This document shows, piece after piece, positions 2,980 to 52,371 of a stretch of 55,523 nucleotides of DNA. The stretch comes from Chromatiales bacterium. Its GTDB lineage: Bacteria > Pseudomonadota > Gammaproteobacteria > JAGRGH01. Numbering within the stretch: the stretch's first letter is position 1; the number at the start of each line of letters is the position of its first letter. The notes beneath the pieces are model-generated. The model made no database searches, was not told where the DNA came from, and was given only the letters and a program-made list of their open reading frames with translations. The DNA is taken from contig JAGRGH010000007.1 in NCBI GenBank assembly GCA_020445605.1, positions 1 to 55,523 on the forward strand, given 5' to 3'. The position numbers were made by a program, and so were the translations under genes.

Positions 2980-3150
2980 CTGAGCAGGCTGTTGAGATTC
3001 TCATTTCAACAGTCTGCTCTAGCGAGACAGAGACGTCTCGCCCGAAAATCGAACACACAAGGGTTTGATTTTCGTGAGCCACCGAAAACCGCGCTTTTCG
3101 GTTGCGATGTTGAAAAGGCCATGGACGAGCCTTTTCCAACAACCTATTAG
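2980..3150 (+). repeat. Dispersed hairpin repeat family A, copy 2
   Basis: A full-length copy downstream of smpB in the sense direction. It has all five hairpins. The second loop reads AGAGAC instead of AGGGAC, so the GGA core is lost here, whereas the last hairpin keeps ATGGA. The edges are degenerate relatives of CTAG (CTGAG, TTAG). The rest of the 300-bp gap 2905-3204 shows only a GC-rich inverted repeat (GCGCGG/CCGCGC) just after smpB. Confidence 0.88.
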
Positions 3151-10626: not shown

Positions 10627-10744
10627 GGGGGATCCTCGTCTGGTTGGGTGATGCGTGGCGGAGACCCCGCCACGTTGCTGCAGTTTTGACTGCACCGGCA
10701 CGGGCTCATTGGGCCGGGCGGTCGGAATTGATGATTGTTTACAA

Positions 10745-10897
10745 CTAAAACTCTGATCAATTCAGAGTTTCCCGTGGCACAGGGACGTGCCACCATTTTC
10801 AATGTGCCTAAGCCATTGAAAATATAAGAAAACGAAAAACCGCGCTTTTTCGGGCTCAAAGCTCTGTTAATCCAGGATGGATTAATCAGAGCTTCCC
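10745..10897 (+). repeat. Dispersed hairpin repeat family B, copy 1
   Basis: It begins AAAACTCTGATCAATTCAGAG and ends ATTAATCAGAGCTTCCCC. Inside are a 7-bp stem GTGGCAC/GTGCCAC with loop AGGGAC (10774-10793), a CATTTTCAAT/ATTGAAAAT hairpin, an AACGAAAAA...TTTTTCG hairpin, and a terminal stem GTTAATCC/GGATTAAT with loop AGGAT. The hairpin order parallels family A although the stem sequences differ. Confidence 0.85.
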
Positions 10898-11050
10898 CAA
10901 GCTCTGATGCCGGCAAGCCAAGCTGCCGCAGGCATGAAAACAAAAGGGGTGGTCACCTCGCATTCTCCAAATCGCGCAGGCCCGCAGCCATGGAAAACGG
11001 TGGCACATCCCTGTGCCGCTGGAAACGCCTGACTGGATCAGGGTTTCGAT
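10898..11050 (-). repeat. Dispersed hairpin repeat family B, copy 2 (inverted, degraded)
   Basis: Abuts copy 1 head-to-head. Read on the minus strand it keeps the hairpin GGCAC/GTGCC with loop AGGGAT, so the ten-base core reads ACAGGGATGT, plus TTTTCCA and AAGCTCTGAT ends. The middle has diverged. It lies immediately downstream of the DUF302 gene in the sense direction. Together the two copies fill the 436-bp gap 10627-11062. Confidence 0.65.
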
Positions 11051-11931: not shown

Positions 11932-12100
11932 TCTAACAGGCGATTGAAATTCTCTTTTCAACGGCCTGTTAGCGCGAGACTGGGACGTCTCGCCCGAAAA
12001 TCGAACATGCAAGTGTTTAATTTTTTTGAGCAACCGAAAACAGCGCTTTTCGGTTGCGACGTTGAAAAGGCCATGGATGGGCCTTTTTCAACAACCTGCC
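11932..12100 (+). repeat. Dispersed hairpin repeat family A, copy 3
   Basis: A full-length copy between the DUF2970 gene and the RpfG-like gene, in the sense direction of the latter. The second hairpin keeps the GCGAGAC/GTCTCGC stem with loop TGGGAC, and the last hairpin keeps ATGGATG. The edges are TAACAGG and CAACCTGCC, that is, degenerate CTAG ends. The remaining 288 bp before the next gene show no gene or clear promoter. Confidence 0.88.
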
Positions 12101-12388
12101 AATTCAACCAGGCGCCCGCTGACCGGGTTCGAGCCTGCCGGGCGGCGGACCGCCCCGCGAAAGCAAACCTCTCTCCCACAGGCCAGCGCCCCCCCCGCCC
12201 GGTCGCGACGGCCGCCGTTGCACACGCAACACACCGACGTGCCATCGGTTGCCTGCCGCACGGTCCCGACCGACACGGCGACGGGCAATGAGCTAGACTC
12301 GGACTCCCGACCACCGCCCGCTCCGCGCCCGGGGCCGCGCGTCGGCAGAACATCGCCGGAACACGTTTTCACAAGGAGCAGCCAGGCC

Positions 12389-30504: not shown

Positions 30505-30548
30505 CTAAAGCAAAAACCCCGTCGTGGCGACAAGCCACAACGGGGTTT
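30505..30548 (-). terminator. Rho-independent terminator of erpA
   Basis: A stem of AAACCCCGT/ACGGGGTTT with an inner GTGG/CCAC stem, followed on the minus strand by TTTTTGCTTT. It lies 230 bases past the erpA stop, with repeat A copy 4 in between. That places the repeat in the erpA 3' untranslated region. Confidence 0.85.
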
Positions 30549-30576: not shown

Positions 30577-30746
30577 CTAGCAGGTTGTTGAAAAAGGCCT
30601 CTCCATGGCCTTTTCAACGTCGCAACCGAAAAGCGTGGTTTTCGGTTGCTCACGAAAATCAAACACTTGCATGTTCGATTTTCGGGCGAGACGTCCCTGT
30701 CTCGCGCTATCAGACTGTTGAAATGAGAATTTCAACAGCCTGCTAG
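30577..30746 (-). repeat. Dispersed hairpin repeat family A, copy 4 (CTAG on both sides)
   Basis: The best-bounded copy: CTAG at 30577-30580 and 30743-30746 enclose a 162-bp core whose ends read CAGGTTGTTGAAAA and CAACAGCCTG. Read on the minus strand all five hairpins are present, including GCGAGAC/GTCTCGC with loop AGGGAC and GGCC with loop ATGGAGA. It is in the sense direction of the erpA transcript and upstream of its terminator. Confidence 0.93.
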
Positions 30747-30776
30747 CGGCCGTTCGCTGAAACGCGCGGCGGGCGA

Positions 30777-31299: not shown

Positions 31300-32130
31300 A
31301 TGCCCGCCGAATCCCCCCGCGTGCCGCGCCGTCCCGTCGTTCTGGTGTTCGCCGGTCATGACCCGGGCGGCGGCGCGGGAATTCAGGCCGACATCGAGGC
31401 CATCGGCGCCATGGGCGCCCACGCCGCGACGGTGGTGACCGCGCTGACCGTGCAGGACACGGTCGGGGTCACGGCCATCGGCGCCGTGTCGTCCGAATCG
31501 ATTCGCGCGCAGGCTGGCGCCATCCTGGCCGACTGCCCGGTTGCCGCGATCAAGACAGGCCTGCTGCCGAGCGCCGAAATCGTGGAAACCGTCGCCGGAC
31601 TGGTGCGGGGTTGCGGAGTCCCGCTCGTGGTCGACCCGGTACTGCGCTCGGGCGCCGGCGACGCGCTGACCGATCCGGCCGTCGTTCGCGCACTCATCGA
31701 ACGGCTGCTGCCGCTCGCGACCATCTCAACCCCCAACGCGGCCGAGGCCTGTGCGCTGGCCGGTCTGCCGGCCGATCGGGCCGCAACAGCGGCGTCGGAC
31801 CTCAGCCGGACCGCCGGTTGCAGCGTGCTGCTGACCGGCGGGGACGTGATCGAATCCCCGGACGAGGTCGTCAACCGCCTGTTCGCAGAAGGCAGAGAGC
31901 GCCGCCAATGGCGCTGGCCACGCCTGCCCGGCGCCTATCACGGCTCCGGCTGCACCCTAGCCGCGGCGCTCGCGGCGCGGCTGGCGGCCGGGGATTCACT
32001 GGACGCAGCCTGCGAACTCGCACAGTCATTCACCGACCGGGCGCTAGGCGCGGCCTTTCGCAGCGGACGCGGTCAGCTCATACCGGGTCGCCGCGGCGGC
32101 GGTCCGGCAACGCCGTCCGGTTCCAGCTAG
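31300..32130 (+). CDS. thiD: Hydroxymethylpyrimidine/phosphomethylpyrimidine kinase ThiD
   Basis: 276 residues, ribokinase-like fold. It phosphorylates HMP and HMP-P in thiamine synthesis. Typical blocks: VFAGHDPGGGAGIQADIEAI at the start, AIKTGLL, VVDPVLRSGAG, TPNAAEA, and the anion-hole/catalytic region GAYHGSGCTLAAALAA. I see no thiamine riboswitch upstream. The TAG stop is the TAG of CTAG (32127-32130) at the left edge of repeat B copy 4. Confidence 0.93.
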   Translation: MPAESPRVPRRPVVLVFAGHDPGGGAGIQADIEAIGAMGAHAATVVTALTVQDTVGVTAIGAVSSESIRAQAGAILADCPVAAIKTGLLPSAEIVETVAGLVRGCGVPLVVDPVLRSGAGDALTDPAVVRALIERLLPLATISTPNAAEACALAGLPADRAATAASDLSRTAGCSVLLTGGDVIESPDEVVNRLFAEGRERRQWRWPRLPGAYHGSGCTLAAALAARLAAGDSLDAACELAQSFTDRALGAAFRSGRGQLIPGRRGGGPATPSGSS

Positions 32131-32284
32131 GGAAACTCTGAATTGTCAGAGTTTCCCGCAGCACATGGACGCGCTGCCATTTTCAACGGGTGTAACACGT
32201 TGAAAATGAAAGAAAGCGAAAAATCGCATTTTTTCGTTTTCTGCGCTCTGGCAATCTGGGATGGATTGATCAGAGCTTCCCTAG
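32127..32284 (+). repeat. Dispersed hairpin repeat family B, copy 4 (CTAG on both sides)
   Basis: A 150-bp core flanked by CTAG on each side, consistent with target duplication. The ends are GGAAACTCTGAATTGTCAG and GGATTGATCAGAGCTTCC. Inside are GCAGC/GCTGC with loop ATGGAC, TTTTCAAC/GTTGAAAA, GAAAGCGAAAAA/TTTTTTCGTTTTC and CAATC/GGATTG with loop TGGGAT. The left CTAG ends thiD and the right CTAG ends the convergent DUF3095 gene. Confidence 0.93.
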
Positions 32285-33519
32285 GAATCACCTGTCCGGG
32301 CCTGCAGCTGGCGCTTGAGCTCCATCGCCGCGCGCGTATAGGCCGCGCCGCGACCATCGATGAAATGCACGTGCGCGCGGTCGTAGTCCGAGATCATGCA
32401 GGTGACCAGCGAATGCGAACTGGTGTGCATGCCGTAGACGATACGCCCGGTGCGGCGTAATTCGTCCAGGTACTCGACCAGTTGCCCGCGCTGGGCAGGC
32501 GTGCCCGACACCATCATGCGCAACATGTCATCAAAGCGCTGAAAGTCCGTATGCTCAACCAGCCGCTCGCGATAGCGAGCCCAATCGGTCTGCCCGGTTC
32601 GCGTGCCACGATTCATAAGCCACCGTCCCACTGCAGTCAGGGCAAGCAGCTTCACGAAATAGAGCGCGCGCCGATACCACGGCAGCAGCCCCGCACGAAT
32701 GCGCACCTCGACGCCCAGCTTCGCCGGACTCGAGGACAGACGCATAGCGGATGGCTCAAGTGGACGACAGCGCTCGACGCATCCATAGATTTCGCGCAAT
32801 CGGGCAAGGATTTCGGCGTAGAGGTCGACATCGCGATCAATGACCTGCACCAACAGATTGACCACCTCCCCGCTCGGTGCGGGAATCTCGCCCCAGCGGC
32901 ATTCGAATCCTCGCAGGAGGTCGTCTTCAATCGGTCTGTCGCCAGCCGCACCCTCCGCAAGGAGATAGCGGCCCGCCGCGTCTTTGATCATGCGCTCGGC
33001 CGCGCTGAGACCGCGGCCACCAAAAATCGCCTGATCATAGTGCGCGCTCGGCGCGAAACGGCCGATCAGAACGTCATCTCCGTGTGCGCGAACGTCTGCA
33101 ATCGGCACAAAGCCGATGCGCAGTTTCAGCGCAAACCGGCGTTGCGCGATGGTCCGCGCCACGACCAATGCCTGCTCCACCCGCCCGCGCAGGTCGCCTG
33201 GAATACAAAATGAGGCGCCATCGCCGCCAAAGGTGTACGGAATCGGGATGCCCCGGCTCGCGTTGAGCGTGGCGACGATGGCTGCCGCACCGATGGCATT
33301 GACCTCGCGATAGCGTCCGGCTTCCACCGCTCGCGTGGAGTCGGCGATATCGGCGACGACGACCAGCCAGTCGTCCGGCAACGGCGTGAGCAGCGCCAGA
33401 TCGAGGAACGCATCAAACTCCGCGTGACCCGGAAGATCGCGGTAGAACCAGCGTGTGGTGCCGGCCGCCGCCACGCCGCCGGGCGGCTGTTGGTCAGCGT
33501 TCGACGAAGTTCCAGTCAA
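32281..33519 (-). CDS. DUF3095 family protein, adenylate/guanylate cyclase-like
   Basis: 412 residues. The N-terminal two-thirds resembles a class III nucleotidyl cyclase fold: VVVADIADSTRAVEAG fits the first metal-binding strand and IPYTFGGDGASFCIP the second, with LRIGFVPIADVR further on. This is the DUF3095 pattern; whether it makes a cyclic nucleotide is unknown. A hydrophobic stretch (LYFVKLLALTAVGRWL, about residue 300) may contact the membrane. The stop is the TAG of the CTAG at the repeat edge. It lies downstream of mtnA on the same strand with a 66-bp gap. Confidence 0.8.
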   Translation of the reverse strand: MTGTSSNADQQPPGGVAAAGTTRWFYRDLPGHAEFDAFLDLALLTPLPDDWLVVVADIADSTRAVEAGRYREVNAIGAAAIVATLNASRGIPIPYTFGGDGASFCIPGDLRGRVEQALVVARTIAQRRFALKLRIGFVPIADVRAHGDDVLIGRFAPSAHYDQAIFGGRGLSAAERMIKDAAGRYLLAEGAAGDRPIEDDLLRGFECRWGEIPAPSGEVVNLLVQVIDRDVDLYAEILARLREIYGCVERCRPLEPSAMRLSSSPAKLGVEVRIRAGLLPWYRRALYFVKLLALTAVGRWLMNRGTRTGQTDWARYRERLVEHTDFQRFDDMLRMMVSGTPAQRGQLVEYLDELRRTGRIVYGMHTSSHSLVTCMISDYDRAHVHFIDGRGAAYTRAAMELKRQLQARTGDS

Positions 33520-35661: not shown

Positions 35662-35711
35662 ACCAAACCCGCCGTGGTGTGCGCCATGGAAACGCTGGCC
35701 CAGAAGGATTT

Positions 35712-35880
35712 TTAACAGACTGTTGAAATTCTCTTTTCAGCAGCCTGATATCGCGCGACAGGGACGTCTCGCCCGAAAATCGAACATGCAAGGCTCTGAA
35801 TATCGAGAGCAACCGAAAACCGGGTTTTCGGTTGCGATGTTGAAAAGGCCATGCACAGGTCTTTTTCAACGACCTGTCAA
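35712..35880 (+). repeat. Dispersed hairpin repeat family A, copy 5
   Basis: Full-length copy downstream of the DMT permease gene in the sense direction. The AGGGAC loop is kept on a slightly changed stem (GCGCGAC/GTCTCGC). The third hairpin has diverged (CGAAAATC...GAATATCGAG), and the last loop reads ATGCACAG, so the ATGGA core is lost here. The edges are TTAACAG and GACCTGTCAA. Confidence 0.88.
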
Positions 35881-40110: not shown

Positions 40111-40198
40111 TTATCGTGGCTCGCCCGGCGGGGCGGCCAGCCGGCATTTTCGATGGCGGAATAGCCGCGACTTATATGGCCGCGGAGCCACCGGGGCG

Positions 40199-40367
40199 CT
40201 AGCAGGCTGTTGAAACTCTTATTTCAACAGCCTGATATCGCGAGACAGGGACGTCTCGCCCGAAAATCGAACACCCAGGTGTTTGACTTTCGTGAGCCAC
40301 CGAAAACCGCGCTTTTCGGTTGCGATGTTGAAAAGGCCATGGATGGGCCTTTTCTACAACCTGTTAG
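40199..40367 (+). repeat. Dispersed hairpin repeat family A, copy 6
   Basis: Full-length. Left edge CTAG (40199-40202), right edge TTAG (40364-40367), which contains the dxs stop codon (TAA on the minus strand). All five hairpins are kept, including loop AGGGAC on CGAGAC/GTCTCG and loop ATGGATG. It is antisense to the flanking adk and dxs genes. Confidence 0.92.
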
Positions 40368-51954: not shown

Positions 51955-52120
51955 TGATTGCATTGATCCGGCATGCCACCGGCACGGCGGGAACCGCGGC
52001 TCAGGGATGTGCCGCCGCGATCCAGCAGGCGCGCGCCGCGGATCACAGAGAAAAGAAAAAACCGCGCCGTTTCGTCTTTGTTGCGCTGGCAATCCTTCGA
52101 CGGATTGATCCGTGCATCCG
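51955..52120 (+). repeat. Dispersed hairpin repeat family B, copy 6 (diverged)
   Basis: Upstream of dnaX. It keeps GCGGCTC/GTGCCGC with loop AGGGAT, so the core reads TCAGGGATGT, plus AGAAAAGAAAAAACC...GTTTCGTCTTT and CTGGCAATCC...GGATTGATCC. The ends are degraded. It is antisense to dnaX and lies next to the SRP RNA gene. Confidence 0.7.
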
Positions 52121-52133
52121 GAATCGATGGCGG

Positions 52134-52238
52134 CGGCCGCGCCAGCCACACCCCGGCGCCCGAGTCCACTGCTGCGGCTGCTCCCTTCCGGGCCTGACCG
52201 GGTTCACAGCTTTTCGTCGCGGGGGGACCGACGCGGCC
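52134..52238 (-). ncRNA. ffs: Signal recognition particle RNA (4.5S, small bacterial type)
   Basis: About 105 nt on the minus strand. The conserved hairpin GGTCAGGCCCGGAAGGGAGC followed by AGCCGCAGCAGTGGACTCGGG is the Ffh-binding domain IV, with the GGAAGGGAGC loop typical of bacteria. Outer pairing GGCCGCG...CGCGGCC closes the molecule and was used for the ends. It guides co-translational targeting with Ffh. Confidence 0.9.
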
Positions 52239-52281: not shown

Positions 52282-52371
52282 TGGCGGAGAGAGAGGGATT
52301 CGAACCCTCGATAGGCTTGCGCCTATACTGACTTTCCAGGCCAGCCCGTTCGACCGCTCCGGCATCTCTCC
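52282..52371 (-). tRNA. tRNA-Ser (anticodon GGA)
   Basis: 90 nt with the encoded CCA. Acceptor GGAGAGA/TCTCTCC, discriminator G, anticodon loop CTGGAAA (GGA, reads UCC/UCU), the long class II variable arm TATAGGCGCAAGCCTAT, and T-loop GGTTCGAATCC. Confidence 0.97.

Follow-up and report, generated by a model that had tools for sequence, protein, structure and literature searches.

Non-autonomous insertion elements (MITEs) of bacteria are usually regarded as passive leftovers of IS elements. Other high-copy palindromic intergenic repeats include REP/BIME with their RAYT transposases, ERIC, NEMIS and the Correia elements, which fold as RNA within host transcripts. A structured regulatory RNA derived from a transposon is described in Salmonella, where the IS200 5′tnpA-derived sRNA has GGA motifs and CsrA binding has been suggested for testing (PMC12594629). 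The CsrA/RsmE consensus is CANGGANG presented in apical hexaloops (PMC4894983, PMC6849547), and TwoAYGGAY RNA (RF01731), which has two hairpins with AYGGAY loops, is a proposed CsrA binder (PMC4333381). Judged from its sequence and that of its homologues, the repeat described here is best read as an IS5-type MITE that probably carries a conserved, putatively two-site CsrA-binding RNA.

The window is a 55,523-nt stretch of a Chromatiales bacterium (contig JAGRGH010000007.1, positions 1–55,523), and all six copies of the repeat reported in the earlier note are present at their positions, the copy at 30577 on the minus strand and the other five on the plus strand. The reference copy (30577–30747, minus strand; 205 bits with R1, a first covariance model trained on 32 copies from this genome) is flanked by the target duplication CTAG (30577–30580 and 30743–30746) and contains five hairpins on the minus strand, located at 30711–30742 (hairpin 1), 30686–30705 (hairpin 2), 30653–30684 (hairpin 3), 30622–30649 (hairpin 4) and 30587–30618 (hairpin 5). 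Hairpin 2 has the loop AGGGAC (30693–30698, minus strand) closed by a C-G pair, such that CAGGGACG corresponds to CANGGANG, the CsrA/RsmE hexaloop (consensus from PMC4894983, PMC6849547); hairpin 5 has a second GGA loop, ATGGAGA (30600–30606, minus strand), and the hairpin 4 loop is CCACGC (30633–30638, minus strand; conserved form YCRCRY). The remaining five copies, also of this CAGG type and all on the plus strand, are at 66–243 (172.7 bits, lacking the left terminus), 2980–3150 (181.6 bits), 11932–12102 (184.5 bits), 35711–35880 (159.4 bits) and 40198–40367 (188.8 bits). As had been reported, the hairpin 2 loop is AGGGAC in four of the six, TGGGAC in the copy at 11932 and AGAGAC in the copy at 2980, where the GGA is broken, and five of the six have ATGGA in hairpin 5; the copy at 35711 has ATGCA instead (loop ATGCACA), with loss of the GGA.

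The count of six is correct as far as it goes and is incomplete, with two well-kept copies and one decayed copy of a second subfamily (GGAA-type) having been missed in the window. These are on the plus strand at 10741–10902 (92.1 bits; hairpin 2 CAGGGACG, hairpin 5 CCAGGATGG), 32126–32286 (108.8 bits; a perfect CTAG target duplication and the hairpin 2 loop ATGGAC) and 51962–52125 (the decayed, weak copy; 37.9 bits), all scored with R2, a broader covariance model that adds second-subfamily copies. The two subfamilies coexist in the genome and R1 detects the GGAA-type only partly; in addition to 10741–10902 and 32126–32286, GGAA-type copies are found at loci L073, L116, L117, L131 and L136. Two neighbours of copies in the window are of separate interest. 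A strong intrinsic-terminator-like hairpin (AACCCCGTCGTGGC..GCCACAACGGGGTTT; 30513–30548) adjoins the reference copy, and ~12 bp separate the end of the decayed copy at 51962–52125 from a bacterial small SRP RNA gene (52137–52233, minus strand), with a tRNA gene beyond it (52285–52371, minus strand; both from Rfam).

The repeat is a MITE of ~165 bp that inserts into and duplicates YTAR sites. It has inverted-repeat ends, which read CAGGYTGTTGAAA.. in the six CAGG-type copies and resemble GGAARCTCTGAWTAA in the second subfamily. Perfect direct duplications of 4 bp, of the form YTAR, flank 19 of 69 copies compared with 6.35 in shuffles (0/5000), and the correlation between left and right flanks is confined to the two free positions of YTAR, Y and R; YTAR is the target-site duplication of IS5 (PMC10359306). 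Full-length IS5-family elements with GGAA-type termini occur in other element-bearing genomes (G303, G124, G261 and G021), with GGAA..CTCTGA/CGCTGA-like ends and, in G124 and G261, YTAR duplications, some of them perfect; both of the IS transposases tested match NF033581 (IS5 family). In G261 the variant CGCTGA, not CTCTGA, is common to IS and MITE, and at locus L160 of G124 a MITE directly adjoins an IS copy. Since the termini of the sister subfamily are found on full-length IS5-family elements, IS5-type transposases most likely move the MITE, and would do so into YTAR sites. For the CAGG-type, there is no PF01609 match in this genome and no convincing CAGG-ended IS among the loci examined, and its transposase partner may be lost or different in kind.

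An origin from a RAYT/REP system was considered and rejected. Two RAYT-like Y1_Tnp genes (L031, G000:C51, and L032, G000:C49) are without linked hairpins, and the genome-wide search gives no element match beside either of them. Neighbouring, oppositely oriented copies meet or overlap close to their ends at three places (L117:5781–6105, L110:2501–2790 and L076:4436–4725), an arrangement that suggests insertion of one element into a YTAR site of another.

A genome-wide covariance-model search with a copy count, as the earlier note had proposed, gives ~88 copies of the same family at E≤1e-12 in the 3.36-Mb, 63-contig genome (counted in the stretches around genome-wide matches), far beyond chance, and the family extends to other genomes. 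Of the 369 genomes of the class, 50 (from 40 of 272 genera) have matches to R1, and R2 finds the element also in other classes of the phylum. Copies per genome range from 3 to more than 100, with 107 matches in the complete chromosome G124. The R1-matched hosts, with loci taken from a pattern scan, include Sedimenticola, ‘Candidatus Muproteobacteria’, Methylothermaceae, Chromatiales, Thiotrichales and Lysobacteraceae, as well as a Marinobacter MAG and an Olavius algarvensis endosymbiont. Plasmid and phage records have no nucleotide match to the element. A full-length element (100 bits) is also present in a Nitrospirae MAG (L294; JACPZO010000052.1), reflecting either transfer or misbinning.

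Folding of 30577–30747 yields the five hairpins that had been claimed, with a minimum free energy of −84.6 kcal/mol, far below that of shuffled sequences (z = −9.9; 0/200 shuffles). Across lineages the stems have been rewritten by compensatory change with pairing kept. Fifty-four of the 56 base pairs are doubly changed across 35 lineages and 95.8% of cells are still paired, at a mean stem identity between lineages of ~52%. The covariation score for the 35 lineages is 0.721, compared with 0.214 in shuffled and at most 0.137 in slid controls, on an alignment that is fitted to the model and so leans towards structure; unaligned copies folded independently by minimum energy have five hairpins in most cases.

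While the stems covary, the loops of hairpins 2 and 5 are kept across the 35 lineages, in agreement with the CsrA/RsmA-like character first proposed for them. Hairpin 2 is conserved across lineages as C-A-N-G-G-A-N-G, with lineage entropies of 0.37, 0.42, 1.47, 0.09, 0.15, 0.20, 1.75 and 0.48 bits at the successive positions, and its free positions coincide with the N positions of the published CsrA/RsmE consensus. The hairpin 2 loop contains GGA in 102 of 109 copies and in all 35 lineages, with the full CANGGANG in 93 of the 109. Hairpin 5 has a GGA loop in 102 of the 109 copies and in 34 of 35 lineages; by lineage majority, 16 have a CANGGANG hexaloop, nine have a CAGGANG pentaloop, nine have other GGA loops and one has none. 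Hairpins 1, 3 and 4 provide the comparison with other loops that the earlier note had suggested; their loops hold GGA in 2, 0 and 0 of the 109 copies respectively, and the opposite-strand triplet TCC has a single occurrence over all loops. Beyond the class, six further loci have the same pattern in both GGA loops. GGA hexaloops outside of known copies are few (stems of at least 7 pairs, in a background control that left out loci chosen for the motif), and many of those are further copies of the element. The element has a covarying fold carrying two predicted CsrA/RsmA sites, one in hairpin 2 and one in hairpin 5.

The level at which this conservation arises was examined with 69 copies of this genome by separating private variants (present in three or fewer copies) from shared variants (present in more), the latter being mostly passed on through transposition. 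Private mutations affect the GGA at 3.4% and other unpaired sites at 4.3% (p=0.51), and shared variants affect the GGA at 1.9% and other unpaired sites at 10.8%; the private-versus-shared ratio test gives p=0.0012, which is only a guide since shared variants, being inherited, do not count as independent. Stems behave like the GGA (2.2% shared variants). Low shared and ordinary private variation together indicate that the fold and the GGA are kept during propagation and released once a copy is fixed, with selection on the lineage that propagates and not on each copy. The earlier note had taken neutral-like variability of the loop bases as an argument against function; in this genome the loops vary to that extent in private mutations and do not in propagated variants.

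The foremost alternative to a CsrA-binding RNA is that the element acts as DNA: single-stranded DNA, arising by extrusion or during replication, would fold and be read by the transposase or by a host DNA-binding protein. All of the hairpins, including those with GGA loops, would then be kept for transposition itself, and the resemblance to CsrA sites would be coincidental. This explanation has several features in its favour, in that the element is mobile, its copies lie outside genes and on either strand, and selection on propagating lineages is as expected of a requirement for transposition. However, IS5-family relatives whose termini match lack the internal hairpins of the MITE, which are therefore dispensable for the transposase, and the loops fit an RNA-binding consensus down to its two free positions; we consider it unlikely. 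The suggestion in the earlier note of a structure kept only for transposition is therefore borne out with respect to mobility, the YTAR duplication and the IS5-type relatives, although transposition alone fails to explain CsrA-consensus loops with their free positions. Six IS leaders were also inspected, and no CsrA-type hairpins are evident in them.

Hairpin 4 has a conserved loop of its own, YCRCRY, and in almost every lineage this loop caps a stem whose tip is rich in A and U (30622–30649 in the window, and its homologues). CsrA gives no explanation for this loop, and we know of no binder for it. It is a reason to consider a functional RNA with another partner, in which the loops ANGGAN, YCRCRY and A(N)GGA would be read by a different protein, by ribosomes (the GGA being Shine-Dalgarno-like) or by another RNA. 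Against this, the hexaloop, the C-G closing pair, the A preceding the GGA and the free positions agree specifically with CsrA/RsmE, and a ribosome-binding motif would need no covarying stem with an apical loop, making a partner other than CsrA an improbable choice, behind action as DNA.

Common descent with recent horizontal transfer could in principle produce a passive MITE whose loops are functionless. Within one genome, pairing and covariation among copies are no greater than in shuffles and private mutations are uniform, both of which are compatible with such an element, although an absence of within-genome covariation is also what is expected of decaying copies. Between lineages the stems are almost fully rewritten with their pairing kept and the GGA constant, whereas descent without selection would change loops at the pace of stems, and a passive origin of the pattern is very improbable.

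By the gene calls of a simple ORF model, no copy in this genome overlaps a gene by more than 60 nt. Copies have no sense-strand bias relative to one-way gene pairs, either in this genome (16 sense and 30 antisense; p=0.054) or in other genomes (18 sense and 23 antisense), and are if anything antisense to neighbouring genes. The sense-strand bias expected if copies mark the host mRNAs carrying them was not found, and orientation lends no support to that proposal. For the 88 copies in this genome, convergent gaps are occupied more often than divergent ones (28 versus 11; p=0.009), and the 3′ end of the element points towards an opposing gene's end in 60 cases versus 27 (p=0.0005). This placement, and the resemblance of hairpin 5 to an intrinsic terminator, could be taken to mean a transcription terminator or REP-like boundary element near gene ends, but the bias is explicable by purifying selection against insertions into promoters, the terminator-like tip is missing in some lineages (e.g. 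the A/U-rich hairpin 5 of G130) and neither the GGA loops nor hairpins 2–4 are accounted for, leaving this the least credible explanation of all.

This genome encodes CsrA, as do 45 of the 50 element-bearing genomes; of the five in which it was not found, four are ≤90% complete. It is also present in 268 of the 319 genomes of the class without the element among the matches listed, a frequency too high for its presence to distinguish genomes with the element from those without, and it was set aside as a discriminator; it is permissive only. No conserved −10 or −35 motifs of a promoter inside the element are present in the few lineages checked by eye.

In the proposed mechanism RNA would be the acting molecule and CsrA its binder. 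The RNA of one strand would form a chain of five hairpins, of which hairpins 2 and 5 would present a GGA loop of the kind bound by CsrA/RsmA proteins. Because both carry GGA, one transcript would supply the pair of sites that a single CsrA dimer occupies, and with two sites per RNA transcribed copies would be expected to bind CsrA, acting as dispersed, mobile CsrA decoys or docking sites in the manner of CsrB and RsmZ. The fold and both loops would be selected in the lineage that is still jumping, with inserted copies mostly decaying neutrally, and binding would aid the spread of the element or its tolerance by the host. Titration of CsrA would be a benefit in trans, shared equally by all copies, on which selection could hardly act one copy at a time. 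The selection pattern would be more in keeping with a benefit in cis, and candidates include harmless landing in transcripts, protection from read-through transcription and control of transposition. The full proposal, a transposable element with a CsrA-binding RNA core that has spread over dozens of genera in several classes and is helped to survive by the binding of CsrA, is offered more tentatively, with a prospect of being correct that falls slightly short of even.

Over deep divergence, this MITE family keeps an RNA fold with two putative sites for a highly connected regulator. If CsrA binds them, genomes with 50–100 copies would hold 100–200 extra CsrA sites placed by transposition, and the family would be a natural example, open to testing, of how a mobile element wires itself into a global regulon; if true, it would also hint at a source of new CsrA-binding RNAs.

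Comparison with described RNAs reveals no gathering-level Rfam match for the element (the window and 12 loci), including to CsrB, CsrC, RsmX/Y/Z/V and TwoAYGGAY, and a search of the literature (exclusive of subscription papers and ISfinder) found no MITE with CsrA sites. Among the weak Rfam matches, TwoAYGGAY and RsmV (clan CL00106) are GGA-loop RNAs. The best element match to TwoAYGGAY scores 17.4 bits (cut-off 43), and hairpin 2 of L034 matches RsmV weakly, at 15.6 bits against a cut-off of 100. The element shares with TwoAYGGAY the GGA-type loops in two hairpins, putative CsrA sites in both, and differs in having five hairpins rather than two, transposon ends and different taxa. Like CsrB/CsrC and RsmX/Y/Z/V, it has GGA hexaloops (CANGGANG) at the apex of several hairpins, with at least two per RNA; however, each of those RNAs comes from a gene present once or a few times, with a regulated promoter and a terminator, whereas the element is a transposing repeat. 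The IS200 5′tnpA-derived sRNA is a transposase leader of one IS, in contrast to a non-coding element with the loops as its conserved core. REP/BIME, ERIC, NEMIS and Correia repeats also differ, in that the element has a YTAR duplication and IS5-type ends and is not a RAYT system. The closest relatives are IS5-family MITEs, which are likewise short and non-coding with inverted ends, a 4-bp YTAR duplication and many copies, and the GGAA-type termini are common to full IS5-family elements in other element-bearing genomes. An ordinary MITE, however, has only the ends of its parent, whereas this element has a covarying internal chain of hairpins with fixed loops, which is absent from the related IS and conserved across dozens of genera. 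No Rfam family or paper describing the element was found; its kind, the IS5-type MITE, is known, and it is the conserved RNA core that is new.
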